From Prevotella sp. HUN102 (GTDB taxonomy: Bacteria > Bacteroidota > Bacteroidia > Bacteroidales > Bacteroidaceae), in assembly GCF_000688375.1 (NCBI RefSeq), contig NZ_JIAF01000004.1, forward strand, positions 1,550,001 through 1,614,000: DNA of 64,000 bases. Reading direction: 5' to 3'. Made by a program: the position numbers and the translations under genes. Positions 8,601 to 35,946 of the stretch are shown here, one piece after another (position 1 is the stretch's first letter; every line of letters begins with the position of its first letter). The notes below the pieces were generated by a model. The model had not been told where the DNA came from and ran no database searches. It worked only from the letters and a program-made list of their open reading frames with translations.

Positions 8601-8646
8601 TCCAAATCGTACCCCCTTCCCCAAAAAACGATTAGGGGGTACGATT
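8601..8646. repeat. Direct/inverted repeats near the left end, candidate integrase arm sites
   Basis: TCCAAATCGTACCCCCTT (8601-8618) recurs exactly and in the same orientation at 62833-62850 near the right end. AGGGGGTACGATT (8634-8646) is an inverted copy of its core. Repeats inside both ends, close to the integrase gene, are what arm-type binding sites would look like; this is an inference. Confidence 0.6.
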
Positions 8647-8744
8647 GTCGGAAAATGGCTTACTTTTGACGTGATTTGTCTATACTCTATTTATCTCATT
8701 TACAGTGATTAAAATTAGTTTTGCAATCTAAAAAAAGTGAGATT

Positions 8745-9797
8745 ATGAAAAATGAAAAGAGTACATTCAGCGTATTGTTTTACCTGAAAAAAGACAAGAT
8801 GAAAAAGAGTGGTTTAGTACCCATTCATGCCCGTATCACAATCAACGGCAAACAAACCCAATTCAATACCAAGTTAGAAGTCCTTGAAACCAACTGGAAA
8901 TCCGGCAGAGCCATAGGTAAATCAATGGAGATACAAAGGCTTAACTCCATGCTGGACGACATTAAGGCAAATATCCGTTCCCACTTCCACAACCAATTAA
9001 TGCGGGATAGCTATGTTACCCCCGAAAGCGTGAAAAATGCTCTTTTGGGAAAAGAGGAAGAAGCCAATACCATCATTTCTTTTTTCACCCAGCACAACGA
9101 CCAGTACAAGAAAAAGGTCGCAGCAGGTGAAGCGACCCCCAAAACCTACAGCCGATATGAACTGACAAAGTTACGCCTGATAGAATACATGAAAGATGAA
9201 TATCGTGTATCAGACTTACCGATACGTCAAATTAATAAGGTATTTATTGAGAACTTCTACCTATATATAATAAAGAACCACGATTGTTCACCCAATACAG
9301 CAATGAAGTTTATCCAACGTTTCCGTACAGTGGTAAACTTTGCACAAGCTACCGGATTAATTACTGCTGACCCGTTCGCTCATTACAAACTTAAATTCGA
9401 GTATATCGAAAGAGGGTATCTTGACAAGGACGAAATAAGCAGGTTATGCAATAAAGAATTTGCTTCAAAGCGATTGGAACAGGTACGGGATATTTTTATT
9501 TTTAGCTGTTATACCGGACTTTCATACGTGGATATATGCGAATTAACCCGCAGCGACATCCGTATGGCATTCGATGATAATTTGTGGATTATAAAGAAAC
9601 GTCACAAGACAAAAGTAACATCAAACATCCGTTTACTGGATATTCCGAAAGCTATCCTAAACAAATACGAGGGAAAACTTAAAAACGGTCAATTGCTACC
9701 TGTTATCAGCAATCAAAAAATGAATGATTATTTGAAAGAAATTGCAACGGTATGCGGTATTGACAAGAACGTCACATTTCATATGGCAAGGCATTGA
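8745..9797 (+). pseudogene. Integrase of the outer element, 5' part (interrupted)
   Basis: Tyrosine recombinase of the Bacteroidetes IntDOT type: an N-terminal SAM-like arm domain, a core-binding domain (about residues 100-200), then a catalytic domain with CYTGLSYVDI (no Arg at the canonical box I position, as in IntDOT). It ends abruptly after VTFHMARH with a TGA created by the junction. The HxxR of box II is kept, but the box III region and the nucleophilic Tyr are missing; they lie at 26519-26716. Start is ATG 8745; the frame open from TTG 8721 overlaps a TAGTTTTG -7-like box (8716-8723). Joined, the gene would encode about 410 residues. As it stands the protein cannot recombine DNA. Confidence 0.9.
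9780..9793 (+). repeat. Left junction repeat of the nested element
   Basis: CATATGGCAAGGCA is present here and again at 26519-26532. It encodes the HMARH box of the interrupted integrase. One copy is expected to remain after precise excision. Confidence 0.88.
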
Positions 9798-9981
9798 GAA
9801 TTTTATAAGCGTCAAATAATCAATAGATTATGTTGTTCGTTAATAAAGGGAGGTAACGATAAGGAAACCAGCAAACTTCTATACTCCACCTTATTTTGCC
9901 ATTTCAAAGAACCGCTTTTTAGTTTTGCAAAAATATTATTTTCTAAACAGAAAGACAAATATTTATCTACTTTTTTATTAG

Positions 9982-10905
9982 TTATCCATGAAAGATATCT
10001 CTCTTTAGAGGCATTTCTTTTTTTAAACGCCTCTCATCTCTATTTAAAAATTTGAAAAATGTTTTTTGATAAAATACATGATGATTTCTATGTAATAAAA
10101 AATGCTCGTTAATATTTTCCAAAAATTGGTATGTATCTAATAAAGTATGAAATTGCTTATACCCATACTTATTTTTTCCAAAGGATGAAAGAGCATCGTA
10201 AAAAATCAAGGCTAATTCTTCGTCTGACAATTGTGCTTGTAAAATATTTAAATAACGTTGAATGTCAGTATTCTCGGTTTTATCTTGAACTGCATTCCTT
10301 TCTGTCACGACAAAGTTGATCGTATTGTAAATATATCTAAAAAAATAGCCTATACTAAAATTGTGCTTTCCAACGAATGAATCAAAAAAATCTAGTATAC
10401 AGCCTTGAGCCATATCTTTCTCGGTATCCAATGAATTGCTTGACAGCCTATCCATAATAGTTTCAAAATTATCCTTGTTCTCTTCTTTTGGATAGATTGT
10501 GTAATATTCTTTCATTAATCCATAATAGTCCCATATCGTTGTAATGTTGGGGGTATTAAAGTGTTGAGCAATGTTTTTATTCACATTATCCCTAACATCA
10601 TCTAACATTAATAGGAGATTAAAATATGTCGTTTCAAAGCGAGATTGCTCTTGAGACTGTTTAGATAATTCAAACTGTTTCCGTTGTTCTCTGAATGTTA
10701 TGAATAAGAAGATAGTTGCTGTTATTGTAAAGAGTATACCAATTGTATCTGAAATAAAACTTCCAAGGTTATTCTTTAGTTGTTCAACAACATAACTATT
10801 ACTAAACACCTTTTGTGAAATACCCATATACAAAAAGTATACACATAGGAGTATGCCTGCAACTAAAAAAATAATTGCCATCCAAAACATCAAATTTTTC
10901 TTCAT
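9982..10905 (-). CDS. Putative phage abortive infection protein (putAbiC-like)
   Basis: A 307-residue membrane protein with two N-terminal helices (about residues 7-30 and 48-70) followed by a long cytoplasmic part. The segment SRFETTYFNLLLMLDDVRDNV shortly after the second helix resembles the signature of the putative abortive infection protein family (putAbiC), including the F-x-x-x-F/Y-F-x-L-L pattern. The mode of action of this family is not known to me. It is the second gene of a two-gene unit: the upstream gene's stop is one base from this ATG. The pair is A+T-rich compared with neighbouring tra genes, and it sits at the left edge of the nested element, a common spot for defence cargo. 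Confidence 0.7.
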   Translation of the reverse strand: MKKNLMFWMAIIFLVAGILLCVYFLYMGISQKVFSNSYVVEQLKNNLGSFISDTIGILFTITATIFLFITFREQRKQFELSKQSQEQSRFETTYFNLLLMLDDVRDNVNKNIAQHFNTPNITTIWDYYGLMKEYYTIYPKEENKDNFETIMDRLSSNSLDTEKDMAQGCILDFFDSFVGKHNFSIGYFFRYIYNTINFVVTERNAVQDKTENTDIQRYLNILQAQLSDEELALIFYDALSSFGKNKYGYKQFHTLLDTYQFLENINEHFLLHRNHHVFYQKTFFKFLNRDERRLKKEMPLKRDIFHG

Positions 10906-10906
10906 T

Positions 10907-11890
10907 CTAATTATCCTCTTGTATTTCCCTTATAATAAATGTTGTCAACAGATGTGCTTGCCTATTAAGCGACTCATAAGTAGGATAATTGTTTGAAGCA
11001 AGCTCAACATTGTCTGTTATATCCATAAAAGTTCCCAGTTTTTCTATGTCTTTTACTGATAACTGCCTTGCTTGCCCTTCAATTATTACTTCAAATTTAA
11101 CATCTCCATATTGCACACCTTCAATGCTAAAAACATTAGATGAATCAACACGCTGTATTCTATTAAGAAGGCTTCTGATATTAAAGAAATTATTTCTTTT
11201 AGCAGTGTAAACAATTTCTGTATTTCCCACCTCATCATTAGATATTTCATTGTTTGTCATGCGCGAAACTTTGAGATCTTCCTTGTGCACCTGTTCAAAA
11301 GTTATCTTCTTTGCCCCTCCTCCTATAGAACCAAGATGTTGATTTATAAGTCTTTGTAAAACTAATGGATTGATTTTTAAAACAAAATTGTTTTCATCAT
11401 CTTCAATAATTCGGGGGGCTAAATATCCTCTCAGTTTACTTTCCAATAAGCTATAGATACCTAGATTCCCTATTCTTTCTAAAAGCAAAAAAGCAACTTT
11501 AGAATCTTCAGGAACATAAAAAAGGAAATAGAAAGGAATAAGAAGAGCTTCATTTACACTCTTGGTATGTGTTGCTTCTCCAGTTAAAACATTAACCATA
11601 TTTTCTTCTGTTCCGTAATCACCTGTTTCAATAATTCCAGAGATATACCTTCCGTCAGTAAATAGCAAATCCCTCCCATCTCTTTTCATAATTCGAAAGA
11701 ATTTTTCTTCATCTCGATTTTGAGCAACATCTTCATTTACTGAATTATACCTTAAGGTGTTAAACAATTCGTTAATAATATCAATAATATCAAATCCATT
11801 CATAAAGTCCGAAAGCACTATTCGGTCATCCCTTTTTCCTTTTCTGTTTATCGATAATTGATAGAGGGCTAAACTAATTTTTCTTGCCAT
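10907..11890 (-). CDS. Uncharacterised partner of the putAbiC-like gene
   Basis: 327 residues, not recognised. It is soluble by inspection: no signal peptide or membrane segment, and alternating charged and beta/alpha stretches. No nuclease, NTPase or protease motif is evident. A Gly-rich HLGSIGGGAKK segment lies near residue 190. Its stop codon is separated by one base from the ATG of the membrane protein gene, so both should be translated from one mRNA. The simplest reading is a sensor or effector acting with the membrane partner in a defence module; the family is unknown to me and this is inference. Confidence 0.75.
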   Translation of the reverse strand: MARKISLALYQLSINRKGKRDDRIVLSDFMNGFDIIDIINELFNTLRYNSVNEDVAQNRDEEKFFRIMKRDGRDLLFTDGRYISGIIETGDYGTEENMVNVLTGEATHTKSVNEALLIPFYFLFYVPEDSKVAFLLLERIGNLGIYSLLESKLRGYLAPRIIEDDENNFVLKINPLVLQRLINQHLGSIGGGAKKITFEQVHKEDLKVSRMTNNEISNDEVGNTEIVYTAKRNNFFNIRSLLNRIQRVDSSNVFSIEGVQYGDVKFEVIIEGQARQLSVKDIEKLGTFMDITDNVELASNNYPTYESLNRQAHLLTTFIIREIQEDN

Positions 11891-12080
11891 AAGATGTGTC
11901 TCTTTTATTTTAAATTACTAATTGAATGTCAACAGATTCTTGAGTTATAGAATACTGTAGAAACAATTAGTCGATAAAACTATAACAATGATATACAGCA
12001 TTTTGCATGGCTCAAAGAACCTATTGCAAAGATAAGGGTATGTCGTGAGAAAAAAGAATTTTCTCTCTTAATTTTTTCGT

Positions 12081-12109
12081 AAAGCCGTCTGTTGGGACGG
12101 CTTTTTGTT
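12081..12109 (+). terminator. Terminator-like hairpin
   Basis: AAAGCCGTC pairs with GACGGCTTT over a six-base loop and is followed on the plus strand by a T-rich run. No plus-strand gene is seen directly upstream, so it may be a relic. Confidence 0.6.
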
Positions 12110-12542
12110 TTCTGTGTATTCTATTCTTATGATGAAATGCAGTCTCCGAAGACGGCGTTTTTTGTTTTCACCCTGCTTCTCTCTCTGCACATCCTCCACT
12201 TATGCCCGTGTATCATGTCCGGGATCGGTTGTTCGTTGTCAGCGGCAAAGGTAGTTCCTGGCTTCTACGGACAAAAAAAGGTCGGGTCGGCAAGCCGTTT
12301 AGACGACAATCTCCACACTTCCATTTCATTGCAGGTAGTATTCTCGCCGTAAAACCTTGTTTGTCCTAAGCCCTACCTTTTTACGCCACTGAAACGAAAA
12401 CGACCGACCTGACGGAAAAACGCATAAGAAAATGTCGGATATGCGAGAAGCAGGGAAAAAGAAAAGTTGAAACTCAAACTCCCTCTCCTCTGGAATCCGC
12501 ATAAAATCAAAAATAATCATTCAAGAAGAACAGATGAAGTAA

Positions 12543-12578
12543 AGCGGTCGGCAGATTTGCCGACCGCTCCTTTTCTTT
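12543..12578 (+). terminator. Terminator-like hairpin, relic of the ardA region
   Basis: AGCGGTCGGCA (12543-12553) pairs with TGCCGACCGCT (12558-12568), followed by CCTTTTCTTTC. A related hairpin with similar downstream sequence lies near 29997-30015 in the outer element. Confidence 0.6.
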
Positions 12579-12682
12579 CTTATGCTTCGGGCGGACAAAG
12601 CCCCCCCAATGAAAAACAGTTCGTTACTTTTGACAGTGAGTTGATACGGCTCAAAAGTAACAAAAAGCCATTGCTAAATGCC

Positions 12683-13111
12683 TCACAATAGCTTCTTGAA
12701 TTTTATCTCTGCCAATCTGTTGATTTCATCTTTGTAGGTCTCAAGATGATGCAAGATGATGTTCTCCACATAGATGCCGATAGTCATATCTCTATTCCTC
12801 ATAGACATGACTATCTCCGCCAATGTATCCTGTAGCTCTTTGGCGATATAGATGGTCTTGCGATTTTTCAGGGCGTTGCGACAGATGAAAAGCGACTCAT
12901 AATCGCCCTTATCAGCCTTTCGCCTTTCTTTTCTTGGGACTCTTGATAAATCCTTTGACATTGGTTCGTCATTTGGACGTTCCGATTCAACACACAGCTC
13001 TTCAGATTGAGAGTGTTTTATCTCACTCTCTTTTCTTTTCATGGGAATACCCTGTGAAATAAGTTCTCGGATAGCAACGGGATCTACCTTGCCGTTTTGG
13101 TTCTCTGTCAT
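12683..13111 (-). CDS. DUF3408 (TraB-like) protein, nested-element copy
   Basis: 142 residues, homologous by eye to the 156-residue DUF3408 protein at 40987-41457. Both have an N-terminal ISQG-P-KK/RK motif, a disordered charged middle, then a conserved C-terminal half beginning Y-x-x-S/Y-x-F and ending in a segment on an external loop: SMRNRDMTIGIYVENIILHHLETYKDEINRLAE. The C-terminal half resembles a ribbon-helix-helix-like DNA-binding region; members are encoded next to traA in CTns. Here the neighbouring traA/ParA gene has been lost. The minus-strand orientation toward the ardA relic matches the outer element's layout. Confidence 0.8.
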   Translation of the reverse strand: MTENQNGKVDPVAIRELISQGIPMKRKESEIKHSQSEELCVESERPNDEPMSKDLSRVPRKERRKADKGDYESLFICRNALKNRKTIYIAKELQDTLAEIVMSMRNRDMTIGIYVENIILHHLETYKDEINRLAEIKFKKLL

Positions 13112-13821
13112 ACTTCCTTAATTTTTATTGTTATACAATTCACTGTTCATTACGTTGCCAAGATATTTACCGATGGAGATGAATACATCCGTTATCGGAG
13201 ATATGTCCAATAATTGGCTTGTACCAGCAGGGCTACATCCTTTCGTTCATACCCTTTCTGTGGAGATGTTAATTAGCGTCCATCAATACAATCGTTCGAT
13301 TGTATTTGCTTTCGCACATTCCCACGTTCGAGTGAAAGAATCAAGGATATGCTCTTTGATATACACCCTCGCTCATATCGCTCATCGAAACGTGATGTTA
13401 TCGAAGACGCATCCCTCCACCGACATATTCGACAGTGCAAATATATGGCTCGGAGATGCTGTAATCAGCGTGATTTCCTTTAGTGCGTACTTGTGGCGTT
13501 AATTTGGATAGTTGTGACTTCATATGAGGTAACGGAGTTAGACATGACGCTTAGTAATTTTGCACCCAAGCGGTAAGCCGAAGCTTTCGAGACATAAAGT
13601 GCTCTTTTTTGAGTGATTCGTTTTCGTCCTTTATGGACAGACTTATTTGCATCGGGCAAATAGCAAGGTATGTTTTATGCAGCACGACTCCGTTTTTGCA
13701 GCATAAAACCCTTGCTCTTGCAGAGAGCTGAAAAAAACTCCGAAGTCGTTTTTCTTGGAGGAGAGAATGCCACATTCTGAATGCCGGTTACGCCGTGAAA
13801 CACTAAAATCCAAAGTAAGAA
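13112..13821. other. Intergenic region with candidate oriT, nested element
   Basis: No convincing gene. The 124-codon plus-strand frame at 13128-13502 has low-complexity composition and no family resemblance. The right part (13626-13755) holds the oriT-like structure listed separately. Confidence 0.5.
13655..13750 (+). other. Candidate origin of transfer (oriT) of the nested element
   Basis: GGCAAATAGCAAGGT (13655-13669) and ACTCCGAAGTCGT (starting 13737) both recur, about equally spaced, upstream of mobA in the outer element (42789 and 42874). Within it, AGCAAGG-TATG-TTTTATGC (13662-13680) can pair with GCATAAAACCCTTGCT (13701-13716). Location just upstream of mobA, dyad symmetry and conservation suggest a relaxosome site; the nick site is not known. 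Confidence 0.65.
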
Positions 13822-14238
13822 ATGAAAATGAAGAAAATTCGGAGCTCACGCTCCAAAGAGAAGACAGAAAAGCGTGTTTCGGTCAATTTCACGCCGACGG
13901 AATACGCTCATTTCCTCACGATGAAAGAGGAAAGCGGTGTGCCAAGTCTGTCACTATTCATCAAGGCAAGGGTCTTTAACGAGACTTTCCGAGTGATAAA
14001 AGTGGATCGTTCCTTGCTTGACTATTATCAAAAACAGACGACTTTGTACGGACAATTTCGCAGTGTCGGAGTGAATTACAACCAGACAGTTGTCGCTTTG
14101 AAGAGCAACTTTACTGAGAAAAAAGCCTTTGCGATGCTTGCCAAGTTGGAGAAAATGACGTTTGAATTGGCAATAATTGGAGGTGAAATCGTACAACTCA
14201 CCCGTGAGTTTCAGGAGAAATGGCAACATCGGCAATAG
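13822..14238 (+). CDS. mobA: MobA-like relaxosome accessory protein, nested-element copy
   Basis: 138 residues, clearly related to the 145-residue protein at 42907-43344: both have a basic start, an RVSVNF/SISFN beta strand followed by a short helical turn (ribbon-helix-helix type), FGEPFKVIKID/FNETFRVIKVD, YGQFRSVGVNYNQ and a C-terminal LTREFQ/ETRW. Such MobA/MobC-type proteins bind oriT DNA and help the relaxase. In intact loci the relaxase gene starts inside the end of mobA. Here the ATG at 14220 remains, but the relaxase frame is gone after a few codons. Confidence 0.85.
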   Translation: MKMKKIRSSRSKEKTEKRVSVNFTPTEYAHFLTMKEESGVPSLSLFIKARVFNETFRVIKVDRSLLDYYQKQTTLYGQFRSVGVNYNQTVVALKSNFTEKKAFAMLAKLEKMTFELAIIGGEIVQLTREFQEKWQHRQ

Positions 14239-14269
14239 CCTTTTACTGTGCATTATTATTCCTTAATGA
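14220..14269 (+). pseudogene. Deleted relaxase (mobB) start
   Basis: The ATG at 14220 overlaps the end of mobA exactly as the mobB start does in the outer element. The following codons (MATSAIAFYC) share nothing with the relaxase after the first few residues. The relaxase gene therefore seems to have been deleted between here and the terminator at 14270. Confidence 0.45.
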
Positions 14270-14309
14270 ACAAAAATCAGGCTTCCCTCTCATTTCGGGA
14301 AGCCTGATT
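14270..14309 (-). terminator. Terminator downstream of the rteC fragment
   Basis: AATCAGGCTTCCC (14275-14287) and GGGAAGCCTGATT (14297-14309) form a 13-bp perfect stem. On the minus strand it is followed by TTTTT. Confidence 0.88.
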
Positions 14310-14325
14310 AAGCATTTGAATGCAT

Positions 14326-14667
14326 TTATCGTTTCTTGTATTTTCCGCCTTTCAGGTCACTCTCAACCATTCGTTTGTTCATTTTCTCTCGGAGGTCATC
14401 AAGGAAATAGGTGCGACTGTCATCCTTGCGGTGTTTCATGTTCATATAGACGTTGTAGCAGTTCTTAATTTCTACACCCAAGATTTCAGAAAAGACATCT
14501 GCCAATTCTTCTATACCAATTTCACCATCGTTAATACAGCCATAGGTATCGAGTGCATAGAGTAGTTCGACCAAGTCTGTTGCCCTGCCTGTCCAACGGA
14601 GTTTCTTCGCAGGTCTGACTGGCAAAGCAGGAAGAAGCCCCTGCATTCGCATCCTCAACAATAGCAA
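14326..14667 (-). pseudogene. RteC C-terminal fragment
   Basis: 113 codons resembling the C-terminal half of RteC, a regulator of CTn excision. LRWTGRATDLVELLYALDTYGCINDG, EIGIEELADVFSEILGVEIKNCYNVYMNMKHRK and RTYFLDDLREKMNKRM match the layout of the RteC protein at 56184-57044 (FRWTATKIAAVELGYAI, then DRTSFLNSL). The N-terminal domain is missing or out of frame. The reading frame continues upstream without a stop past 14667 (KNISELLCVIDTEL), overlapping the adjacent 77-codon frame, which suggests a frameshift. Confidence 0.7.
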
Positions 14668-14674
14668 CTCTGTG

Positions 14675-14908
14675 TCAATAACACAGAGCAGTTCCGATAT
14701 ATTTTTTCCCCATTTCGGTTGTTATACCTATTTTTTCAACCATACCTCTTAAATGGAATCGAGTAAAGTTCAATGTGCGAAACAATGAAACAAGATTTTC
14801 TTCACTATTCCCCAACTTTATGATTTCTCTGATAAGGTCATCGGTTGCTTCCGTACTTTTATTAGAGAATAGCATCTCAAAAGATGCGTTTTTAATAAGT
14901 CTTTTCAT
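14675..14908 (-). CDS. Small unrecognised ORF upstream of the RteC fragment
   Basis: 77 codons on the same strand, ending at 14675 where the RteC-like frame already runs in another phase. KNASFEMLFSNKSTEATDDLIREIIKLGNSEENLVSLFRTL is a plausible alpha-helical protein. It may be an independent small regulator or the frameshifted upstream part of a chimeric gene. No family recognised. Confidence 0.4.
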   Translation of the reverse strand: MKRLIKNASFEMLFSNKSTEATDDLIREIIKLGNSEENLVSLFRTLNFTRFHLRGMVEKIGITTEMGKKYIGTALCY

Positions 14909-14999
14909 ATTGCCTGATGGTTTTTGCAGGCAAAGTTCTGAAGATTGTTCAGGGCAAAATAACCCTCAAACGGCAAGTAATATCCCTATTGCATAAAAC

Positions 15000-15980
15000 T
15001 CACAAAGAGTCGAGATATTGCTTGGGTTTTATTCTGTGATATTTGCGGAAAGCCTCCGTGAAGTGGCTGAGATTGGCATATCCGATTTTATAGCCTACTT
15101 CGGATACAGAGTAAAGACGAGTGGAAAGCAGTCGTTTTGCCCATTCCATCTTTTCGGATAGGGCATACTCGGCAATCGCCTTGCCGATAACCTGCTTGAA
15201 GCATTTTTGCAGTTTGGAGCTGCTCATTGCTGCTTCACGTGCCAGTTCGGGAATGCTCGGTACGTTGTTTAAACTTTGTAAAATCTGACGACGGACACGA
15301 AAGACAGCCTCCACATCGTTCAAATTCAAGTTGGAAAGAGATTTTACCTCCGAACGTTTTTCGAGTTTTTCGAGGAACATTGTCAGCAGTTCTATTGCCT
15401 TTCCGTGCAGATGGAGGGGATAGAAAGGCGCATCGCTTTTGGCTATCGCCTTGATGCCATCCAATACTTGTTGCATCGCAGGTGTGATAGTCTCGAATAG
15501 ATAAAAAGACTTGTCCGACCGGAGCAGCCGACCGATGTAGGTTTCGTGAGCCGTATCCATTTGCTCTATCCAATCCTTGTTGAAGGTCAATGTGATGTTT
15601 TCATACTGCCGTTTGGGAGCGAAAGTCCACTCCGTAGGGATATTGCTTGAGGGCATAAAGATACCGTCGAGCGTGTCCACCCCGACCGTTTTCGTGCTTG
15701 TGCCGATAATCTGCTCGTGCTTATGCTCGTTGATATAGAACATCACAGGAATCCATTTCGAGTTTTCCACCGAGCGACGCACCATTGTCATCGGTTCGTA
15801 CGATACGAAACTGATGTAGGTCAATGTGAGCCATGACAACGGGTAGTATTGCTTGAAAAAGCCGCTGCCCACTGAGGGCGGAACGGTAAAACCATCGTTC
15901 GTTACCGATGTGCCGAATTGCTCGGCAACCATCTCCATCCAATCTTCTGGCTTATTGATTGCACAAAATTCTATGGTCAT
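15000..15980 (-). CDS. AraC-family transcriptional regulator
   Basis: About 326 residues. The C-terminal 100 residues are a double helix-turn-helix of AraC/XylS type: IPELAREAAMSSSKLQKCFKQVIGKAIAEYALSEKMEWAKRLL, then SVSEVGYKIGYANLSHFTEAFRKYHRIKPKQYLDSL. The N-terminal 220 residues should bind an effector and resemble PchR-type iron/siderophore regulators, although I cannot confirm this. I prefer the start at 15980 (MTIEFC), with AGAAAGG a few bases upstream, over 16016. It faces the lipoprotein-receptor operon on the same strand and is the natural candidate to control the whole uptake cassette. Confidence 0.9.
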   Translation of the reverse strand: MTIEFCAINKPEDWMEMVAEQFGTSVTNDGFTVPPSVGSGFFKQYYPLSWLTLTYISFVSYEPMTMVRRSVENSKWIPVMFYINEHKHEQIIGTSTKTVGVDTLDGIFMPSSNIPTEWTFAPKRQYENITLTFNKDWIEQMDTAHETYIGRLLRSDKSFYLFETITPAMQQVLDGIKAIAKSDAPFYPLHLHGKAIELLTMFLEKLEKRSEVKSLSNLNLNDVEAVFRVRRQILQSLNNVPSIPELAREAAMSSSKLQKCFKQVIGKAIAEYALSEKMEWAKRLLSTRLYSVSEVGYKIGYANLSHFTEAFRKYHRIKPKQYLDSL

Positions 15981-16072
15981 ATCATTATACCTTTCTGCAA
16001 ATTTACAAATAAACAAGGATAAAAAAAGAGGATTTTCTTATATTTTTATCCTTGTTGAATCACATGCTCTAT

Positions 16073-16110
16073 AAAAAACAAGAGTATTCCTTTTTGAGGG
16101 AATACTCTTG
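16073..16110 (-). terminator. Terminator of the receptor/lipoprotein operon
   Basis: CAAGAGTATTCC (16079-16090) pairs with GGAATACTCTTG (16099-16110). On the minus strand a run of six T follows. It lies about 10 bases past the lipoprotein stop. Confidence 0.9.
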
Positions 16111-16120
16111 CGATAGGGAT

Positions 16121-17302
16121 TTACTCAAACGCGACTAAACTTGACGGTACTCCCACGGCAGTAACGACGGGTATTTGGGAGCATTCGCCCGTCTTGGTAT
16201 TGTAGGTATAGTAGCCCGTTCCGTTATTGCACGTCATACCAAAGACGATGAAATCCTTGTAGCGAGTTATGGCAAAAGAGCCATTGCTGTCGGTCATCGG
16301 CAAATCGAGTTTTTCGATGGTTTTGTTCCAAATGTCGATTTTCACGGGTTGGAAGTCTTTCTTGAGTATTCCAAATTCCGTATCCGTTACTTTCAAGCAA
16401 CTATATACAATGCCATTGCCCGCATAGTAAGACTTAATCATATACTGTCCGGTCTTTCCTATTCCCTTGATGGTCGTTTTCGACAGGTTGAACAGGTAGT
16501 CGGCGTCCCATTGGTCGCTTCCTTTGCGGATACGCAGGAAACCTTCCTTATTGGCAACGTTGAAGTTGTTGCCCGCACTGTAAAAGTAGATGTCTCCCCG
16601 CTCGTCCATAAAGGCATCGGAATGGCGGAACAATCCGACAACACTTGTGCGACTATCCTTAATGACTTCAGTCTTTTTCGTTTTAAGGTCAATAACAGCC
16701 ACCTCTGCACCCGTCCCCGGAACGGAGGTGTGGGGCGAATTGAGCTGGTTGAGGGCTACATACATCTTTCCGTCTCGAATGACGTTGCAACCGGGGTCGG
16801 GATTATTGTCCTGAACGGCATAAGGCGAGAGGTCGATTTCATCTTCTTTTTGCAACGTAGCGGTATTGATTAGCGCAATCTTTCCCCTTCCGTGCAAAGC
16901 GACATATGCCCGTTGCTCGTCGATAAAATTGATTTCTCCGGGTTGCGCCATCTGTTCAAAGGTCATCGTACCTGCTTTTAGCAATTCGCCGTGCGCCCCT
17001 CTTGTAAACTTATGTACCTTATCTCCGAATTTCCCTTCGGGCACAAGTACCGTGTTTCCTTTTGCGAAGAGATAACACCCAAAGCCAAATTCGAATGCTT
17101 TCTTGTTGTCGGTAGCTTGAGGTGTCAAATCACCGAACGTGCCGACGTAAGCACTTTTGTCCACATAATGCACAAAGGCAAAATGCTGTTGCACCTCGTT
17201 GGGCGTTGGTTTGGGGTCATCATTTTTGTCGCAGGACGTCAGCCCTATGGAGCCGACCAGCATAGCAAAAAGGGCTATGTTCTTCAATGTTGTTGTTCTC
17301 AT
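16121..17302 (-). CDS. DUF4374-type lipoprotein (XusB-like)
   Basis: 393 residues with a type II signal peptide (lipobox GLTSC, lipidated Cys near residue 25). The rest reads as repeated beta strands (AYVALHGRGKIALINTATL, EVAVIDLKTKKTEVI, FVVFGMTCNNGTGYYTYNTKTG), consistent with a beta-propeller. In Bacteroides, surface lipoproteins of this type next to a TonB receptor bind siderophores (XusB of the xus locus), so this is probably the substrate-capturing partner of the receptor encoded 18 bases upstream. The substrate cannot be read from sequence; ferric siderophore or heme-like ligands are the leading options. Confidence 0.8.
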   Translation of the reverse strand: MRTTTLKNIALFAMLVGSIGLTSCDKNDDPKPTPNEVQQHFAFVHYVDKSAYVGTFGDLTPQATDNKKAFEFGFGCYLFAKGNTVLVPEGKFGDKVHKFTRGAHGELLKAGTMTFEQMAQPGEINFIDEQRAYVALHGRGKIALINTATLQKEDEIDLSPYAVQDNNPDPGCNVIRDGKMYVALNQLNSPHTSVPGTGAEVAVIDLKTKKTEVIKDSRTSVVGLFRHSDAFMDERGDIYFYSAGNNFNVANKEGFLRIRKGSDQWDADYLFNLSKTTIKGIGKTGQYMIKSYYAGNGIVYSCLKVTDTEFGILKKDFQPVKIDIWNKTIEKLDLPMTDSNGSFAITRYKDFIVFGMTCNNGTGYYTYNTKTGECSQIPVVTAVGVPSSLVAFE

Positions 17303-17320
17303 TTTTATTTATGTTTAGAA

Positions 17321-19696: not shown

Positions 19697-19859
19697 ATCT
19701 TATCTGTTTATAAAAACTCGTACAAAATTACCCACCTATAAAACAGATAAATAACCCTACTATCCACACTTATACCCCTATTGAGTTTTATATGTGTCAA
19801 GTTATCGTTTTCGGGCAGTGTAATGCTCATTCGGGTTATTTTACCCCTGTGCGTCTCCG

Positions 19860-19867
19860 TACTTTTG
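19860..19867 (+). promoter_or_regulatory. -7 box of the ABC transporter operon
   Basis: TACTTTTG matches the Bacteroidetes -7 consensus and lies 30 bases before the ATG at 19898. No clear TTG -33 element is placed at the expected distance, which would suit an activator-dependent promoter. Confidence 0.45.
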
Positions 19868-19897
19868 CATCTTAGAAAATCAAAACGATACAGATAT

Positions 19898-21643
19898 ATG
19901 GATAAACAAAAAATCAAGCCTCTCGATGAGGAACGGGAGAGTCGCAGCCTGCTCTCCAATGCGGTGGTCATACTGCATCTTGTTTTCGGCACACTGCCCC
20001 TATTGCTCGTGGTGTGGGCGGTAGACAGGCTGATGGATGGTACGCTCACTTCTACAATGATTTGGATTGTCGGGGCGGCGATGGTGCTGTTCGCCCTGCT
20101 TCGCGGCGTGTTTTACGGAACGTCGATCTGGCGGGCGCACCGCTCGGCTTACAACGCCCTCACACGGTTGAGGTTGCGTATCGTGAGCCACTTGCAACGG
20201 CTGCCGCTCGGCTTCTTTCAGGAGCGGAAGGTGGGTGACTTGGTGAACATCATCAACCACGACGTGGAGCAAATCGAGATTTATCTGGCACACGGATTGC
20301 CCGAAATCCTCTCGGCAACGCTTTTCCCTGCTTTGCTTTGGGTAATTGTTATGGTATTGGACTGGCGGCTGGGACTGTCGCTCATCTCGCTGCTACCGTT
20401 GGCATTTCTTTTGCAGATGGCAGTTAAAACGTTTTGGGGCAAGAGTTTCCGACACTTTATGGAAAATACGCAGAAGATGTCGGAAGACCTTCTGGAATAT
20501 GTGGCTACAATACCAATCATTAAAGCATTCAGCCACGAAGAGACCCGGACAGAGCGAGTTCTCGGAGGTATGCGCGATTATATCCATTGGGTGAAGCGGA
20601 GCATGTTCAGCGTTACTGTTCCGATGACGCTCATCACGATGTTCTTGGAGGGCGGTATCGTGGTAATGACCCTTGTCGGGCTATGGTTGATGAGTTCGGG
20701 CGAACTGACCGTAGCACGTTTCATCCTCGCCCTGATATTGGGTGGACTGTTCTCATCTTCCTTTGCCAAACTGGCTACGTTCCAGCATTTCAGGATTGTC
20801 TATGGTCAATCGTTGGCGAAGGTTCAGTCGATTACCGAAGTACCTGCAAAGGATACGGCAGACAGGGATACGGATGCCATGCAGACCGATGTCTGTTTCG
20901 AGCACGTGACATTTGCCTACCCGAATAAGAAAGACTGTGCGTTGTGTGATGTCAATCTGCAATTTCCCAAGGGTAGCCATACGGCTATTGTGGGCGAATC
21001 GGGGTCAGGCAAAAGCACACTGGCAAGCCTGATGATGGGTTTCTGGCAACCGCAGTCGGGAACCGTTCGACTGGGCGGCGAGAACCTTGCGGAACTCTCC
21101 GAACACAACATTGCCGATTTCTTTTCTATGGTGCAACAAGAGGTATTCCTCTTCAACACGAGCATTCGGGACAATATCCGTATCGGCAAGCCCTCCGCCA
21201 CGCAAGAGGAGGTGGAAACAGCTGCACGACGTGCACGCATTCACGATTTTATTACGGGGTTACCCAATGGTTACGATACTTTGGCAGGCGAAGCCGGCGT
21301 AAAATTCTCCGGCGGAGAGAAACAGCGCATTTCCATTGCACGGATGTTGCTCAAAGACTCGCCGATTGTCATCCTCGACGAAGCCACCGCTGCCTTGGAC
21401 GGGGAGAACGAGAAACTCATTCAAGAAGCTCTTGATGAATTGCAGCGTAACAAGACCGTCATCACCATCGCCCACCGTCTCAACACCATTCAGGATATGG
21501 AACGTATTGTCGTGATGGACAAGGGAAAGGTTGTGGCGACGGGAACACACGGAGAATTGATGGACAACTGCCCACTATATCGCAATATGACGGAAACACA
21601 GGAACGGGTAAGCAAATGGCAACTGAAAGAGGAGGAGGTATAA
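19898..21643 (+). CDS. ABC transporter, fused permease-ATPase (IrtA/YbtP-like)
   Basis: About 581 residues: a six-helix exporter-type membrane domain (about residues 25-320), then an ATPase domain with Walker A GESGSGKST near residue 366, signature SGGEKQRISIARML near 470, Walker B IVILDEATAALD near 490 and a terminal switch His (TIAHRL). The ATG at 19898 is chosen because the longer frame from 19781 runs through the promoter. With the next gene it forms a heterodimer of the class that includes IrtAB and YbtPQ. These have exporter folds but import ferric siderophores across the inner membrane, which suits the neighbouring TonB receptor and lipoprotein. Direction of transport is inferred. Confidence 0.9.
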   Translation: MDKQKIKPLDEERESRSLLSNAVVILHLVFGTLPLLLVVWAVDRLMDGTLTSTMIWIVGAAMVLFALLRGVFYGTSIWRAHRSAYNALTRLRLRIVSHLQRLPLGFFQERKVGDLVNIINHDVEQIEIYLAHGLPEILSATLFPALLWVIVMVLDWRLGLSLISLLPLAFLLQMAVKTFWGKSFRHFMENTQKMSEDLLEYVATIPIIKAFSHEETRTERVLGGMRDYIHWVKRSMFSVTVPMTLITMFLEGGIVVMTLVGLWLMSSGELTVARFILALILGGLFSSSFAKLATFQHFRIVYGQSLAKVQSITEVPAKDTADRDTDAMQTDVCFEHVTFAYPNKKDCALCDVNLQFPKGSHTAIVGESGSGKSTLASLMMGFWQPQSGTVRLGGENLAELSEHNIADFFSMVQQEVFLFNTSIRDNIRIGKPSATQEEVETAARRARIHDFITGLPNGYDTLAGEAGVKFSGGEKQRISIARMLLKDSPIVILDEATAALDGENEKLIQEALDELQRNKTVITIAHRLNTIQDMERIVVMDKGKVVATGTHGELMDNCPLYRNMTETQERVSKWQLKEEEV

Positions 21644-21646
21644 ACA

Positions 21647-23344
21647 ATGATACGCAATATATTGAATGAATTGACCGTTCGCGGAGTGCGGCATCTGATA
21701 ATCTCCGCACTGTTTTTCGTGGTTTATGCCCTTTGCGGAACGGCAATAATGCTTACTGTCCTGTTCCTTATCGACCGCCATATATCGGGCGAAAGCGTTT
21801 CGCTCATTTCGGCAGCGTGGATACTCGTTGGTCTGCTGATTTTGAAAACCATATCCAATGCCGTAGCCGATATGAGCAAGCACTTTGCCGGCTTCGATCT
21901 CGTGGAGCGCATCCGTGAGAAGATCATCTTGAAACAGAAAATGTTCTCGCTCAGTTTCTACACCAATGAACGGCTGGGCGAGATAAGCACCGTCATTCAC
22001 AAAGACGTGGATAATATGGAAATGGTTGTGGGGCACCTTTGGACACGGATGTCCGCCGACTTCATCGTGGCGCTGATACTCGGCATCGGGCTGTTCTGTG
22101 TGGACTGGCGCATGGGATTAGCGATGATTACCATCCTTCCTATTGCCCTCTTCTCCTTGTATCGGGGCATCCGTTCGGGAATGAAAGCGCAACAGGAGGC
22201 ACAAGACGGTCTGGCGGATATGGTCAGTCTCTTCGTTGAATACGTCAAGGGCATACCTGTGCTGAAAGTCTTCGGAGGAAAAGGAATGTTCCGTGACAGG
22301 CTCGACCGTTCTGTCAGCGAGTTCGGGGAGAGCAGCAAGAAGACCTCACGGTTGGCAGCTGTAAGCGTGGGCAGATATGCCTTTCTTATAGAATTGGCTT
22401 TCGTACTGATGGCAACGCTTGGTTTTTGGTGGACTCGGCATGGCGAACTTTCCCTTTTTGTTTATCTGATGTTCGTCATCGTCTCGAAAGAATTCTACAA
22501 ACCTTTTGTCAATATGGAGAGTCATTGGCTGAACTACATCAAGGTAAAGGACAGCTACGAACGCATTTCCCGTCTGTTGGACGCTCCCGTTATCGTCAAC
22601 CCCGACCAACCGAAAACGGCGGAACATTTCGACCTCTCGTTCGATGGTGTCGGATTCCATTACGAAAAAGAAGGCTTTGAGATGAAAGACCTCACGTTCA
22701 ACGTACCCGAAGGAACGGTAACGGCTCTTGTCGGCTCGTCAGGCTCCGGCAAGACCACCATCACCAATCTGCTGCTCCGCTTTTGGGAACCGCAGGCAGG
22801 CTGTATCCGTATCGGCGACGTAGACATTCGGGAGATGGACTACGATTACCTGCTCGGCAAAATCAGTGTGGTGATGCAGAACGTCATCCTCTTTTCCGAC
22901 ACCATTGCCAACAACATCAAGGTGGGCAACCGCAATGCCACACAGGGGGAAATCAAGGAAGCCGCACGTCGGGCGATGATACACGACTTCATCGTCAGTC
23001 TGCCCGATGGTTATGAAACGATAATCGGAGAGAACGGCTTGGGACTATCTGGCGGACAGAAGCAACGCCTCTCCATCGCCCGTGCCTTCCTCAAGGATGC
23101 TCCCATCCTCCTTTTGGACGAGATAACGAGCAATGTTGACCCCATCAATGAATACAAAATACAGCAAGCAATGTCTGCCCTTATCCGAAACCGCACGGTC
23201 TTGGTCATTGCCCACCATTTGCAGACCATCCGCAATGCCCACCAGATTATCGTGATGGACAAGGGACAGCTTATGGAGAAGGGTATGCACGCCGAACTCG
23301 AAGCTAAAGGCGGAATGTATTGTAAACTGCTGTCGATGCAGTAA
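21647..23344 (+). CDS. ABC transporter, fused permease-ATPase (IrtB/YbtQ-like)
   Basis: 565 residues, second half-transporter. A membrane domain (about residues 15-315) precedes an ATPase domain with GSSGSGKTT near residue 363, LSGGQKQRLSIARAFL near 465, LLLDEITSNVD and VIAHHL. The Walker B neighbour is Asp-Glu followed by Ile (DEITSNVD) instead of the usual DEAT/DEPT, a mild oddity also seen in other halves of asymmetric pairs. The start lies 3 bases after the stop of the first gene (TAA-ACA-ATG), so the pair is one operon. Confidence 0.9.
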   Translation: MIRNILNELTVRGVRHLIISALFFVVYALCGTAIMLTVLFLIDRHISGESVSLISAAWILVGLLILKTISNAVADMSKHFAGFDLVERIREKIILKQKMFSLSFYTNERLGEISTVIHKDVDNMEMVVGHLWTRMSADFIVALILGIGLFCVDWRMGLAMITILPIALFSLYRGIRSGMKAQQEAQDGLADMVSLFVEYVKGIPVLKVFGGKGMFRDRLDRSVSEFGESSKKTSRLAAVSVGRYAFLIELAFVLMATLGFWWTRHGELSLFVYLMFVIVSKEFYKPFVNMESHWLNYIKVKDSYERISRLLDAPVIVNPDQPKTAEHFDLSFDGVGFHYEKEGFEMKDLTFNVPEGTVTALVGSSGSGKTTITNLLLRFWEPQAGCIRIGDVDIREMDYDYLLGKISVVMQNVILFSDTIANNIKVGNRNATQGEIKEAARRAMIHDFIVSLPDGYETIIGENGLGLSGGQKQRLSIARAFLKDAPILLLDEITSNVDPINEYKIQQAMSALIRNRTVLVIAHHLQTIRNAHQIIVMDKGQLMEKGMHAELEAKGGMYCKLLSMQ

Positions 23345-23350
23345 GATCGC

Positions 23351-23395
23351 TAAAAAAGAACAGGTAGAAAGACGCATTTATCTTACTGCCTGTTC
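23351..23395 (-). terminator. Terminator between the ABC operon and the recombinase genes
   Basis: GAACAGGTAG (23358-23367) pairs with CTGCCTGTTC (23386-23395); one G-T pair. On the minus strand a TTTTTT run follows, so it ends the recombinase-side transcript. It also lies right after the ABC operon on the plus strand. Confidence 0.7.
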
Positions 23396-23401
23396 TCATA
23401 T

Positions 23402-23764
23402 TCAACTGTACCATCCACCTTTGCCATAACACACAAGTAGCGGAGGACTTGTTCTCTTCTTTTCGGTCAGTCTTCTGATTATCCATTTACGGAAACTTTT
23501 GGCTTGTGGAGAAGCAAAACGAAATGACAGCATCGTTATCATTTCAATATTATATAAATCCACTGCACCACCCTTAAACAATAGCGTTTGCATCACCTCA
23601 TCTTCTCTGAGTAATCCTTCTTTGAAGATAGACTTGATGTGGCTGTTTACTTTGCCGGAGAATATGCCGAATAAATCGGCTATTTCGCAAGCCGACATCC
23701 AAATGGAAGTCGTAGGAACGTGTACGTTCCCATTCTCCTCAATGGTTATGAATTCTCTTTTCAT
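23402..23764 (-). CDS. Small RhuM/antirepressor-like protein
   Basis: 120 residues. The part TTSIWMSACEIADLFGIFSGKVNSHIKSIFKEGLLREDE reads as a helix-turn-helix resembling the N-terminus of RhuM/Fic-associated or phage antirepressor proteins. The C-terminal SFRFASPQAKSFRKWIIRRLTE is also seen in such proteins. The role is unknown; a directionality or regulatory factor for the recombinases is possible. It starts 6 bases after the recombinase stop at 23771 and is probably co-transcribed with it. Confidence 0.6.
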   Translation of the reverse strand: MKREFITIEENGNVHVPTTSIWMSACEIADLFGIFSGKVNSHIKSIFKEGLLREDEVMQTLLFKGGAVDLYNIEMITMLSFRFASPQAKSFRKWIIRRLTEKKRTSPPLLVCYGKGGWYS

Positions 23765-23770
23765 AGTAAT

Positions 23771-24973
23771 TCAATATTCATTGTTCTTTCTTCTTTCGAT
23801 TAACTTATCCATATCCTCTGAAATCTTCTTCTCTGAAATCTTCGCATAGGTCTGCGTGCTGGTGATGGAGGCATGTCCCATCATCTTGGCAATGCTCTCC
23901 GTACAAATCCCCTCGGAAATCAAGAACGATCCGAAACTGTGCCGGGCTTGATGGTAGGACAGATTCTCCTTGCGCCCGATGATGACGCCCAGTTCGTGTA
24001 TTTCAAACCACATCATATCCCTGCTTGGCAGAGGGAAGACGGGTTGTGTGTCATCGGTCGTGTTGTACAGATTGATAATCTGCTCCGCTATCGGATGCAG
24101 GGGGATAAATGACTCTACCTTTGTCTTCCTGCGGTTAATCCGTATATAACGTCTTCCTTCGGCAGTCTTCCCTATGTGGTGCGGATAAAGCAATTGTGTA
24201 TCGACATAGGCAAGCCCCGTAAAACAGGAGAAGATAAAAGCCCGGCGAGCCAATTCCTTCAATGGGTCATTGGCGGGAAGTTTCAGTTCCAACAGTTGTT
24301 TCAGTTCAGTCCTGCTGATATGCATTCGCTTGGAGGACGGTTTCTTCTCATACTCCAACTCCTCCAAAGGATTGGCACGGATAATCTCATGGTCTACGGC
24401 AAGATATATCAGTCTGTTCAGCCAACAAAGGCAATGGTTGGTCTGCGATGCCCCGAAGTTCTTGTACCGCTTCAGGTAGACCTTATATTCCCGTCCGAAT
24501 TCCTCGGTGATGTCCGAAAAGGCAATATCCGTCTTGCCTTTCGAGTCCAAGAACTCACGGATATAGCTCTGGTAATACCGGGAACTCCTGTAGGTCGAAG
24601 TGGAGTCGATTTCCTTGGAACGGACGGCAAGGCGTTCCCGTTCCCTTTCTCCCATTTGGAGCAGATGGGTAGGAATGACCGACTGACCTGCTATCCTGTT
24701 TTTCAGCAGTTCGGCACTGACCACACCCTGCTCTTTGAGCATTTCATCATAGAGCCGCTCCGCATGTTTGCGGAACTCTTTCAGGCGGTTGTTCGTCCGC
24801 ACGTCAGCGGTCTCCGCCTTTTGGGCATTCCACTGTTTGGGATTGCAAGTAATACCCGTGGTTATCGTCGTGCTTTTCCCGTCGATGGAGATTCGGCAAA
24901 GTACGGAAGTTGTACCATCCACACGTACCTTGTTGCGATTGATATAGAGTAGTAAAGAAAATGTGCTACGCAT
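23771..24973 (-). CDS. Tyrosine recombinase (nested element, first)
   Basis: 400 residues, IntDOT-like phage integrase family. N-terminal arm-binding part with FSLLLYINRNKVR and an SxxSxRI strand, SAM-like core-binding domain (about 140-215), catalytic domain with SCFTGLAYVDTQ (no Arg at box I), YHQARHSFGSFLISEG (HxxR) and TQTYAKI (nucleophilic Tyr). All conserved parts are intact. With the second recombinase it is the likely machinery that integrated the nested element. Stop to start spacing suggests an operon. Confidence 0.93.
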   Translation of the reverse strand: MRSTFSLLLYINRNKVRVDGTTSVLCRISIDGKSTTITTGITCNPKQWNAQKAETADVRTNNRLKEFRKHAERLYDEMLKEQGVVSAELLKNRIAGQSVIPTHLLQMGERERERLAVRSKEIDSTSTYRSSRYYQSYIREFLDSKGKTDIAFSDITEEFGREYKVYLKRYKNFGASQTNHCLCWLNRLIYLAVDHEIIRANPLEELEYEKKPSSKRMHISRTELKQLLELKLPANDPLKELARRAFIFSCFTGLAYVDTQLLYPHHIGKTAEGRRYIRINRRKTKVESFIPLHPIAEQIINLYNTTDDTQPVFPLPSRDMMWFEIHELGVIIGRKENLSYHQARHSFGSFLISEGICTESIAKMMGHASITSTQTYAKISEKKISEDMDKLIERRKNNEY

Positions 24974-24998
24974 AAATTCATTTATTATCTATGGGGTG

Positions 24999-26249
24999 TT
25001 ATAATACAAGTTTCAAATCTTTTGTCACTTCGATATATTTGTCCATATCCTCGAAGAGTTTCTTGGGCGTGACCTTTGCATATACCTGTGTGGTCTGGAG
25101 GTTGGAGTGTCCCAGCATCTTGCAGATGGTCTCGATAGGAACGCCGGCTTCCAAGGTAATCAGCGATGCGAATGAGTGCCTGCCGGTATGGTAGGTCAGG
25201 TCTTCCTTAATGCCCGCAAGAACCGCAAGGCTTTTCATCAGACGGCGAAGGTTGGGATGGTACAGCATTGGAAAGAGGGTCGGACGAGCATCATCCCGGT
25301 ACTTCTCTATCAGGTCAAGGGCTTCGGGCAGCAGCTTGACACAGGCACGAAGCTCGTTTTTCTTGCGGCAGTATTTAAGCCACAGCTCGCCATTGTCATC
25401 CGTGAACAGATTGTCACGCGTAACGGAAACTGCATCGGCGTAGGTTGTTCCCGTATAGCAGGCAAAGAGAAAGAGATCTCTTGCCAAGATATGGGAGGCG
25501 CGATGTTCGGGGATTACCAAGTCACGGATTTTCTCGAAGGATTCCCGGCTTAGGGCTTTTGGTGTCTTCTCCTTTTGTTTGGGGAGACTGAAATGAGCGA
25601 AAAAACATCTGTCGGCATAACCGTCCTTGTAGGCTTTACGGCATATTTTCTTGACGATAGCCAAATAGTGCCGGCAGGTATCTATGGCAAGCCCTTTCTC
25701 GTCCAAGATGAAGCTCTGATAGTCATGAATGAACTGTTCCGTTATCTGACCGAAAGCGATGTCTTTGGTGCGAAACGTCTTGTCGATGAACTCCGCCAAG
25801 GTTCTCCGAGTATAGAAATAGGCAGGGTAAGTTCCCTTTGCACGGTCTATCCCGATACGCTTTCTCAATTCCTCACAGACGATGTCCGTCATTCCCAACA
25901 GGGTCATCTGCGTTTCAAGGCTTCCTTGAAACAGGTTTTTGACGGCCTCCGCATCGAAGTCCATTTTCCTATCCGCAAGCGTGTCGAATGCCGTGTGGAT
26001 GGAGAGCATCAGCTTGTCCAGCTTTGCATTGGTCTCTACGGCTTCATGACTCTTGCCTTTCAGACGGCTTTCACGAGGATTCCATAAGTCGGGAGTACAG
26101 GAGATTTTGCAACTGAATTGCACCATTGAACGATTGACGGTGATGCGTCCCATAATGGGGGCTTTGCCCGACTTGTCGGGTCTGCTCTTTTTGAGGTAGA
26201 GCAACACTTTGAATTTTTCTATTTTCATACGCTTTAATTTTATGGGCAA
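24999..26249 (-). CDS. Tyrosine recombinase (nested element, second)
   Basis: 416 residues, same family as the neighbouring 400-residue protein: KFKVLLYLKKSRPDKSGKAPIMGRITVNR start, core-binding domain (about 140-220), SCYTGTTYADA-type box I region (again no Arg), YHTGRHSFASLITLEAG and TQVYAKV with Tyr. Adjacent pairs of full-length tyrosine recombinases are found in several Bacteroidetes mobilizable elements. It is the closest gene to the right junction of the nested element, 270 bases away. Confidence 0.93.
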   Translation of the reverse strand: MPIKLKRMKIEKFKVLLYLKKSRPDKSGKAPIMGRITVNRSMVQFSCKISCTPDLWNPRESRLKGKSHEAVETNAKLDKLMLSIHTAFDTLADRKMDFDAEAVKNLFQGSLETQMTLLGMTDIVCEELRKRIGIDRAKGTYPAYFYTRRTLAEFIDKTFRTKDIAFGQITEQFIHDYQSFILDEKGLAIDTCRHYLAIVKKICRKAYKDGYADRCFFAHFSLPKQKEKTPKALSRESFEKIRDLVIPEHRASHILARDLFLFACYTGTTYADAVSVTRDNLFTDDNGELWLKYCRKKNELRACVKLLPEALDLIEKYRDDARPTLFPMLYHPNLRRLMKSLAVLAGIKEDLTYHTGRHSFASLITLEAGVPIETICKMLGHSNLQTTQVYAKVTPKKLFEDMDKYIEVTKDLKLVL

Positions 26250-26518
26250 AATTACCCGTTGTTAAAGCGTTCTTTGATAAGCAAAATACTGTGGAACAGC
26301 GAGATAGGATCTCGCCCTATAGAAACTTCTCCTTTTTCCTGTTACCTCACCACACTTGGGAAACCGATGGATAACGGTTTGGTAACCGAAAGGATTCAGT
26401 ATTCCGTGCCGAATTACTTTTCCACTGTAGCTGCAAAATATAGAAAAACGCCTAATTCACAATATGTTACCGATTTATTCTCTATGTTCTTCCAATTCCT
26501 CAAATGGATGATATTTTC
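26250..26518. other. Right end of the nested element, non-coding
   Basis: No gene. The region between the recombinase start and the junction should hold its promoter and att arm sites. Short matches with the left end (for example AACTTCT near 9876 and 26325) are too weak to call. Confidence 0.4.
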
Positions 26519-26532
26519 CATATGGCAAGGCA
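26519..26532 (+). repeat. Right junction repeat of the nested element
   Basis: Exact copy of CATATGGCAAGGCA (9780-9793). To its right the integrase reading frame continues (TFATTITLANG). Confidence 0.88.
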
Positions 26533-26716
26533 CACTTTTGCAACGACCATAACTTTAGCAAATGGTGTACCCATCGAAAGTGTATCTAAGATGTTGGGAC
26601 ACACCGACATTCGCACTACTCAAATCTATGCTAAAGTTATAGATGCGAAATTAAGTAACGATATGGAATTACTGGCACAGAAAATTAATACGAAAAAGGT
26701 AACTGCTACCATATAA
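26519..26716 (+). pseudogene. Integrase of the outer element, 3' part
   Basis: Encodes HMARHTFATTITLANG, then SKMLGHTDIRTTQIYAKVI with the nucleophilic Tyr, and the C-terminal tail. It is the missing end of the gene at 8745. In-frame codons upstream of 26519 belong to the nested element, so no functional product is expected. Confidence 0.9.
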
Positions 26717-26724
26717 AAGATTAG

Positions 26725-34262: not shown

Positions 34263-34265
34263 GGC

Positions 34266-34889: not shown

Positions 34890-34901
34890 CTTGATTTTTA
34901 A

Positions 34902-35927: not shown

Positions 35928-35946
35928 ACTTGTCTGTTTTTAGAGG

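Follow-up and report, generated by a model that had tools for sequence, protein, structure and literature searches.

The closest described counterparts of the locus analysed here are MTnPi1, MTnPi2 and MTnPi3 of Prevotella intermedia, integrative mobilisable elements (IMEs) of the Tyr-duo type, which carry two tandem, distantly related tyrosine recombinases (PMC4755523, PMC5704250). The locus is a 16,739-bp guest element in Prevotella sp. HUN102, found in a 64,000-nt stretch of contig NZ_JIAF01000004.1 (positions 1,550,001 to 1,614,000; hereafter the window, with coordinates counted from its first letter). It lies inside the integrase gene of a second mobile element, a CTnDOT-like integrative and conjugative element (ICE), at the codons of the HxxRH active-site motif. 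The guest shares the tandem recombinase pair with MTnPi1-3, a likeness drawn from published descriptions. The MTnPi attachment (att) sites have a 5-bp variable core, TTAC/TTGC NNNNN AA, which resembles the 5-bp overlap of the guest, and the accessory genes of the MTns include ABC-transporter components, as in the guest (PMC4755523). For most MTn copies, excision was shown by polymerase chain reaction (PMC4755523). Two differences stand out. Most MTnPi elements carry relaxases (PMC4755523), whereas none was found among the 13 open reading frames (ORFs) scanned in the guest, and MTnPi targets are AT-rich and of low specificity (PMC5704250), whereas the guest and its relatives are flanked by HxxRH codons, with the motif or a remnant of it at 110/119 junctions.

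Elements that specialise in nesting within other mobile elements are also on record. IME_oriTs are mobilisable, settle within a conserved region of other mobile elements and use these as both host and helper (PMC7563843), and streptococcal IMEs in the ICE genes maff2, snf2 and traG are likewise specialised nesters (PMC5704250 Table 1, PMC5357655). Their targets are the origin of transfer (oriT) or transfer and membrane genes, with maff2, SNF2 and traG hit by serine integrases, whereas the target of the guest is a set of integrase codons. In Table 1 of PMC5704250, ICE oriT, traG, maff2 and SNF2 appear among the integration sites and no integrase gene does. One CTn copy, CTnPi2-a, lies in an integrase gene, an observation from which PMC4755523 is not known to derive a rule. 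PMC5729914 mentions a CTnERL that is excision-deficient and whose integrase gene carries an insertion. No description of integrase catalytic codons as an insertion target was found in the open literature of the PMC type, outside which lie most subscription papers and all preprints.

The host integrase is present in two pieces. The 5' part (8721..9797, + strand) is an IntDOT-type tyrosine recombinase with Arm-DNA-bind_5, Phage_int_SAM_5 and Phage_integrase domains (Pfam). It is truncated at HMARH, with a C-terminal end reading ...NVTFHMARH*, and the Phage_integrase profile is covered to position 134 of 172 only. The 3' part (26519..26717, + strand; HMARHTFATT...GH...Y in translation) begins at 26519 with HMARHTFATTITLANGVPIESVSKMLGH...Y and carries LGH and the Tyr, so that the 5' product loses its Tyr-bearing end. 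Homologues uninterrupted at this point match both pieces when each is compared separately. P0008 is identical to the 5' piece at 288/293 aa (98%), which leaves aside a dissimilar stretch of the first 65 residues, and shows no difference over the 219 residues that lead up to the motif. To the 3' piece it is 98.3% identical over 58 aa, and its motif reads HLARH where the window has HMARH. P0003 matches 93% of 219 aa on the 5' side and 93% of 54 aa on the 3' side. Because both separate pieces match the same uninterrupted proteins, the gene is split at HxxRH by the intervening DNA, and the nested insertion proposed in a first-pass annotation of the sequence is thereby confirmed.

The host integrase piece itself was found in 1/60 genomes, its own. 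Among its homologues, 11 of the 120 listed (of 2323) stop at the motif and continue with a new tail; P0001, one of these, reads HTASH, and P0011 is a fragment. The tails of eight truncated integrases (P0001, P0002, P0004, P0018, P0019, P0026, P0066 and P0104) are loosely similar over ~14-17 residues: L-K or L-R recurs among them, and L-Q or L-H comes later in the tail. Some resemble the peptides encoded by the left ends L105 and L125.

The guest occupies 9780..26518, one overlap copy counted in, as delimited by a direct repeat and the split gene. The first-pass annotation gave this repeat as 14 bp. Exact copies of CATATGGCAAGGCA do stand at 9780-9793 and 26519-26532, with no further exact copy in the window and a sole third match at up to 2 mismatches (41447, - strand). 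The part actually shared is shorter. Comparison with the left ends of other elements shows that only the first 8 bp, CATATGGC (CAYNNNNN), act as the overlap shared by both sides, with a left copy at 9780..9787 and a right copy at 26519..26526. The AAGGCA that follows the left copy is guest DNA, part of the AAGGCAT at 9788-9794 that the guest supplies.

As had been noted, the guest carries its own recombinase pair. IntA (24999..26249, - strand, 416 aa) and IntB (23771..24973, - strand, 400 aa) are both full length by Pfam and 28% identical to each other. IntA defines, by Pfam and tree, the clade whose insertion sites were surveyed. Relatives of IntA were gathered regardless of insertion site, from the 80 best of 132 loci in GTDB contigs, 42 IMG/VR loci, 12 places in 9/295 genomes of the order and 2 clade copies from genomes already sampled; a search of plasmids with IntA DNA gave no match. 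Merging of identical junctions left 122 groups, of which 3 lacked a usable flank (L020/L209/L216/L219/L222; L063; L224) and 119 were assessable. A junction passed when HxxRH, a GH box and a Tyr lay in one frame on the strand divergent from IntA. The final signature admits two altered motifs, HHGGH in L032 and HRFRD in L053, together with A or D in the GH box. Scoring by regular expression alone was dropped in favour of this test, as it failed to recognise genuine integrases, those with HCFRH and HCGRH among them.

At 104/119 assessable distinct junctions, a tyrosine recombinase is recognisable beside the element by its HxxRH motif, GH box and Tyr in one frame. A further 6/119 (L015, L040, L057, L147, L206 and L228, with L057 the least sure) were judged by eye to retain a remnant, either decayed, interrupted where the contig ends or lying shortly beyond the range searched. 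Reuse of the site, raised as a possibility in the first-pass annotation, is thus strongly supported, with the motif or a remnant at 110/119 junctions; the contrary condition, relatives always in unrelated sites, did not hold, as 9/119 lie in other sites. Before merging, the motif was exactly HxxRH in 110/112 passing loci and lay 265-269 bp from IntA in 92/112, that is, ~267 bp upstream of IntA on the divergent strand. The same-strand scan gave one match, which is not an integrase. Split by source after merging, 66/77 junctions pass in GTDB contigs and 30/32 in IMG/VR, where the other 2 are remnants, and the order-wide draw adds 6/7. The first version of the signature test had passed 74/93 loci. 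Among IMG/VR loci whose flank is 420 nt or longer, 33/35 pass; of the two misses, L206 has its integrase slightly further from IntA, and L239 is 36% identical and outside the clade.

Two side observations concern the sources. In IMG/VR contigs sit 41 IntA relatives of at least 60% identity (L198-L238), so such mobilisable elements have been filed as viral. The contig of L045 is labelled as an Eubacteriales metagenome-assembled genome, whereas the other named hosts of GTDB contigs are Bacteroidota; a binning error is likely.

The targets are diverse. At identity cut-offs of 90%, 70% and 50%, single-linkage clustering of the target remnants of 112 loci gave 75, 37 and 9 clusters. The targets reach beyond the IntDOT-like integrases that had been proposed, as they include IntB-like genes (L016, L019, L024 and L202) and, in L025, L206 and L037, integrases that look unlike IntDOT, with a presumed likeness to the Tn916 or XerD type. 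None is close to the guest's own enzyme: the target closest to IntA is 62% identical over 45 residues.

This regularity bears on a survivorship explanation, in which insertion is of low specificity, as for MTnPi1-3, and insertions in integrase genes persist through their low cost to the cell. The published description of Tyr-duo IMEs as low-specificity elements speaks for it (PMC5704250), as do the 9/119 junctions that lie in no integrase. However, the insertions are not scattered along the gene but strike a single point of it, always oriented alike, and nine paralogous loci (36-55% IntA identity) lack the pattern, with an integrase signature within 900 nt in 0/9. Five of these nine (L129-L133, 47-52% IntA identity) are tandem recombinase pairs in the window's own genome; L130-L132 share a common end sequence and have junctions without the integrase signature, and L129 adjoins another integrase ORF without lying inside it. 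In the IntA tree (126 rows, with 15 loci left out by name and identical and short rows dropped), 10 rows of less than 59% identity fall on one side of a weakly supported branch, none of them in an integrase by the test. On the clade side, 102 rows are labelled integrase and 14 other, and 5 of those 14 are remnant cases (L015, L040, L057, L147 and L228). Some of the off-target sites also resemble the DNA motif of the target. Taken with these data, survivorship is very unlikely to account for the pattern.

The DNA motif was captured in a scoring matrix built from the targets themselves. On both strands of the window only three places score above 8: the right target copy, the motif of guest IntA (23.1) and that of guest IntB (19.8). 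Across the survey, the elements' own IntA sites score below the targets (medians 21.2 vs 24.9, P ~2e-10 on the target-built matrix) and below other intact integrases (median 23.4), although their scores mostly fall within the target range. The non-integrase sites L036, L059 and L049 score 9-11.

Both ends could be read for several elements. Exact core repeats in the first-fetched loci gave no far ends, and a 14-bp search with extended flanks in 20 elements gave three; these showed the repeat to be ~8 bp, and a left-end pattern then yielded more. In all, left ends were found for 7/20 elements with extended flank, plus L201 from IMG/VR. After the overlap the left ends read AARRCAT, where the targets read otherwise. 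Since this element DNA forms an RH- or KH-like codon pair anew, the repeat had looked 14 bp long. The CAYNNNNN overlap is identical on both sides in the window, L016, L022, L031 and L080, and differs between sides in L032, L046 and L201. For six elements both halves match one intact relative (5'/3' identity): the window (100% of the last 219 aa/98%), L016 (90/94%), L022 (97/98%), L201 (73/92%), L032 (61/59%) and L080 (55/55%). The intact relatives of L016 (L155/L169) and of L022 (L152) are genes of the window's own genome. The expectation that integrase codons would be found on both sides of the junctions thus holds for a handful of elements, the rest being read at one side.

A further rival holds that the elements reached new integrase genes through homologous recombination among these genes, or through gene conversion, so that no site-specific choice is needed. 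Integrase paralogues are indeed abundant: the window's genome has 30 PF00589 matches when fragments are counted. But left and right sides share ~8 bp or less where both ends are read, many targets are only distantly related (37 clusters at 70%), and the element sequence ends at the same point of the motif, which together make this explanation extremely improbable.

Comparison of closely related targets indicates what happens to the overlap. In 17/21 distinct pairs the targets differ in NNNNN and agree after the junction. The mean number of mismatching pairs is 10.8 of 21 at positions 4-8 and 1.12 at positions 9-108; positions 3 and 9 mismatch in 8 and 7 pairs. Because identity beyond the overlap (position 9 onwards) was the criterion by which pairs were picked, part of the contrast reflects this selection, whereas the step at the overlap does not. 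In the cleanest case, L086 and the intact L187 share 202/202 bases downstream and differ at 3/5 overlap bases. The site thus has an att core with a 5-bp variable centre (CAY-NNNNN), positions 4-8 being the most variable, with some change at 3 and 9. The overlap is probably exchanged, in keeping with a recombinase that tolerates heterology within it, as integration here seems to do. Such tolerance is familiar from CTnDOT, whose tyrosine recombinase IntDOT accepts heterology in the overlap, or coupling sequence. The guest differs from CTnDOT in that its overlap is coding and encodes residues of the active-site motif of another recombinase; the targets of CTnDOT are not known to be codons of another recombinase.

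The insertion point, its recurrence in one IntA clade, the diversity of targets, the uninterrupted relatives, the paired ends of several elements and the overlap differences are very probably explained by a Tyr-duo IME whose IntA and IntB read a core site made of HxxRH codons and insert there. IntA and IntB would both recognise the half-sites and catalyse the insertion, the right half-site being the stretch that encodes RH[T/S][F/Y]A in the motif. Insertion would take place in a fixed orientation, with the tolerated heterologous 5-bp overlap between the left and right half-sites. Because the split host integrase lacks its Tyr, it would be unable to excise the ICE for as long as the guest stays in place. 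Exit of the guest would leave a complete gene, in line with the restoration envisaged in the first-pass annotation. The original residues may not return, however, since the overlap often differs between related targets, and the restored gene would often carry new x-x residues.

Several observations weigh against so specific an account. The nine junctions in no integrase (L028, L035, L036, L041, L049, L059, L082, L083 and L137) imply a specificity for DNA and not for a gene class, and some of these sites misfit even the DNA motif: L082 and L035 score 6-7, L083 scores 1.4, and L028, L041 and L137 score below 0. The branch that separates the clade from the outgroup has low support (17). No left end was seen in the DNA fetched for 13/20 elements with extended flank; that of L058, from the left-end pattern, is a candidate only, and L031 and L046 had no close intact relative at hand to match both ends. 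Finally, the left end of L037 belongs to another integrase gene than its right end. L037 with L125 may be a chimera or a second copy.

Within HxxRH, x1 and the greater part of x2 are coded by the overlap, so that both residues could be altered by a cycle of entry and exit. A broader proposal follows this line: the clade would prey on competitors' recombination enzymes generally, reading the DNA of catalytic codons, immobilising the resident and being able to overwrite x-x, so that much of the x-x variation among near-identical Bacteroidota integrases, above all at x1, would be the footprint of past visits. Among 557 near-identical intact pairs (1-12 differences; the pairs are not independent), x1 is indeed the most variable column, differing in 267, with the next column at 228. 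Against a free swap of both x-x residues, x2 differs in 0/557 pairs, and this invariance somewhat lowered our estimate of the proposal, which we put forward tentatively and hold to be rather less probable than its negation. DNA searches with P0056, at differing cut-offs, gave 0/393 genomes, 0/5 genomes and 6/123, and in other sources, again at differing cut-offs, 11 plasmid records and 12 IMG/VR loci.

The remaining gene content of the guest comes from the scan of 13 ORFs, 9 run against Pfam and 4 against NCBIfam only. Next to the left end lies cargo (9982..11890, - strand), comprising a putAbiC-domain protein (9982-10905; Pfam, with a weak PADLOC AbiC match) and a protein without a Pfam match (10907-11890). 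A DUF3408 protein common to other guests (12683..13111, - strand; Pfam) has a counterpart of the same family in L095. It is followed by a MobA/MobC_2-like mobilisation protein (13822..14238, + strand; Pfam/NCBIfam), which is 48% identical over 120 aa to that of the host ICE (BLASTP). Upstream of the guest mobA, a 32-bp stretch (13643..13674, + strand) is 90.6% identical to one upstream of the host mobA (blastn), and the two look like a shared oriT region. Further along are a C-terminal fragment of RteC (14326..14667, - strand; Pfam), an AraC-type regulator of cargo (15000..16016, - strand; Pfam), a TonB-dependent receptor (17321..19696, - strand; best NCBIfam match MxcH, below cut-off) and two ABC transporters, each a permease-ATPase fusion (19781..23344, + strand; 19781-21643 and 21647-23344; NCBIfam, below cut-offs).

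An integration module is thus present, and no relaxase, type IV secretion system or coupling protein was found among the 13 scanned ORFs (Pfam/NCBIfam). Given the MobA-like protein and the oriT-like stretch, the guest may move with the relaxase and type IV secretion system of ICEs like its host. Alternatively, the guest in the window could be a dead remnant, now immobile, whose nesting is historical; the lack of a relaxase among the scanned ORFs and the fragmentary RteC would suit this. However, neither IntA nor IntB is truncated, and the two overlap copies are likewise intact. In two relatives (L095 and L103) the DUF3408-mobA region is kept at 84-92% DNA identity, and among those of their ORFs that were scanned no relaxase was found either, so a small gene set may be normal. 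A dead remnant is accordingly an unlikely description of this copy, though one to be taken more seriously than the rivals weighed above.

The host has the features of a CTnDOT-like ICE: Bacteroidetes-type tra genes, a relaxase, an integrase at one end and a flanking repeat. The repeat is an exact 18-bp sequence, TCCAAATCGTACCCCCTT, at 8601..8618 and 62833..62850, and the left end of the ICE lies next to a tRNA-Lys (TTT) gene (8398..8471, + strand; ARAGORN). The transfer genes (32615..46604) encode TraM, TraJ and TraG on the - strand and a MobA-like protein, a relaxase and a coupling protein on the + strand (Pfam; MobA by BLASTP to that of the guest), and a topoisomerase is also among the ICE genes (Pfam). 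Just beyond the right repeat, at 62911-62924, 14 bp of the tRNA-Lys 3' end occur once more, perhaps as a relic of an earlier insertion.

Integrases classically use tRNA genes as their conserved target. In the present case that role falls to the integrases' own active site, and a wide range of tyrosine-recombinase elements would thereby offer a landing place. Such a rule predicts who immobilises whom in ICE-rich genomes and may explain 'truncated integrase' annotations. It also makes testable whether residue variation within HxxRH is functional or a recombination scar.

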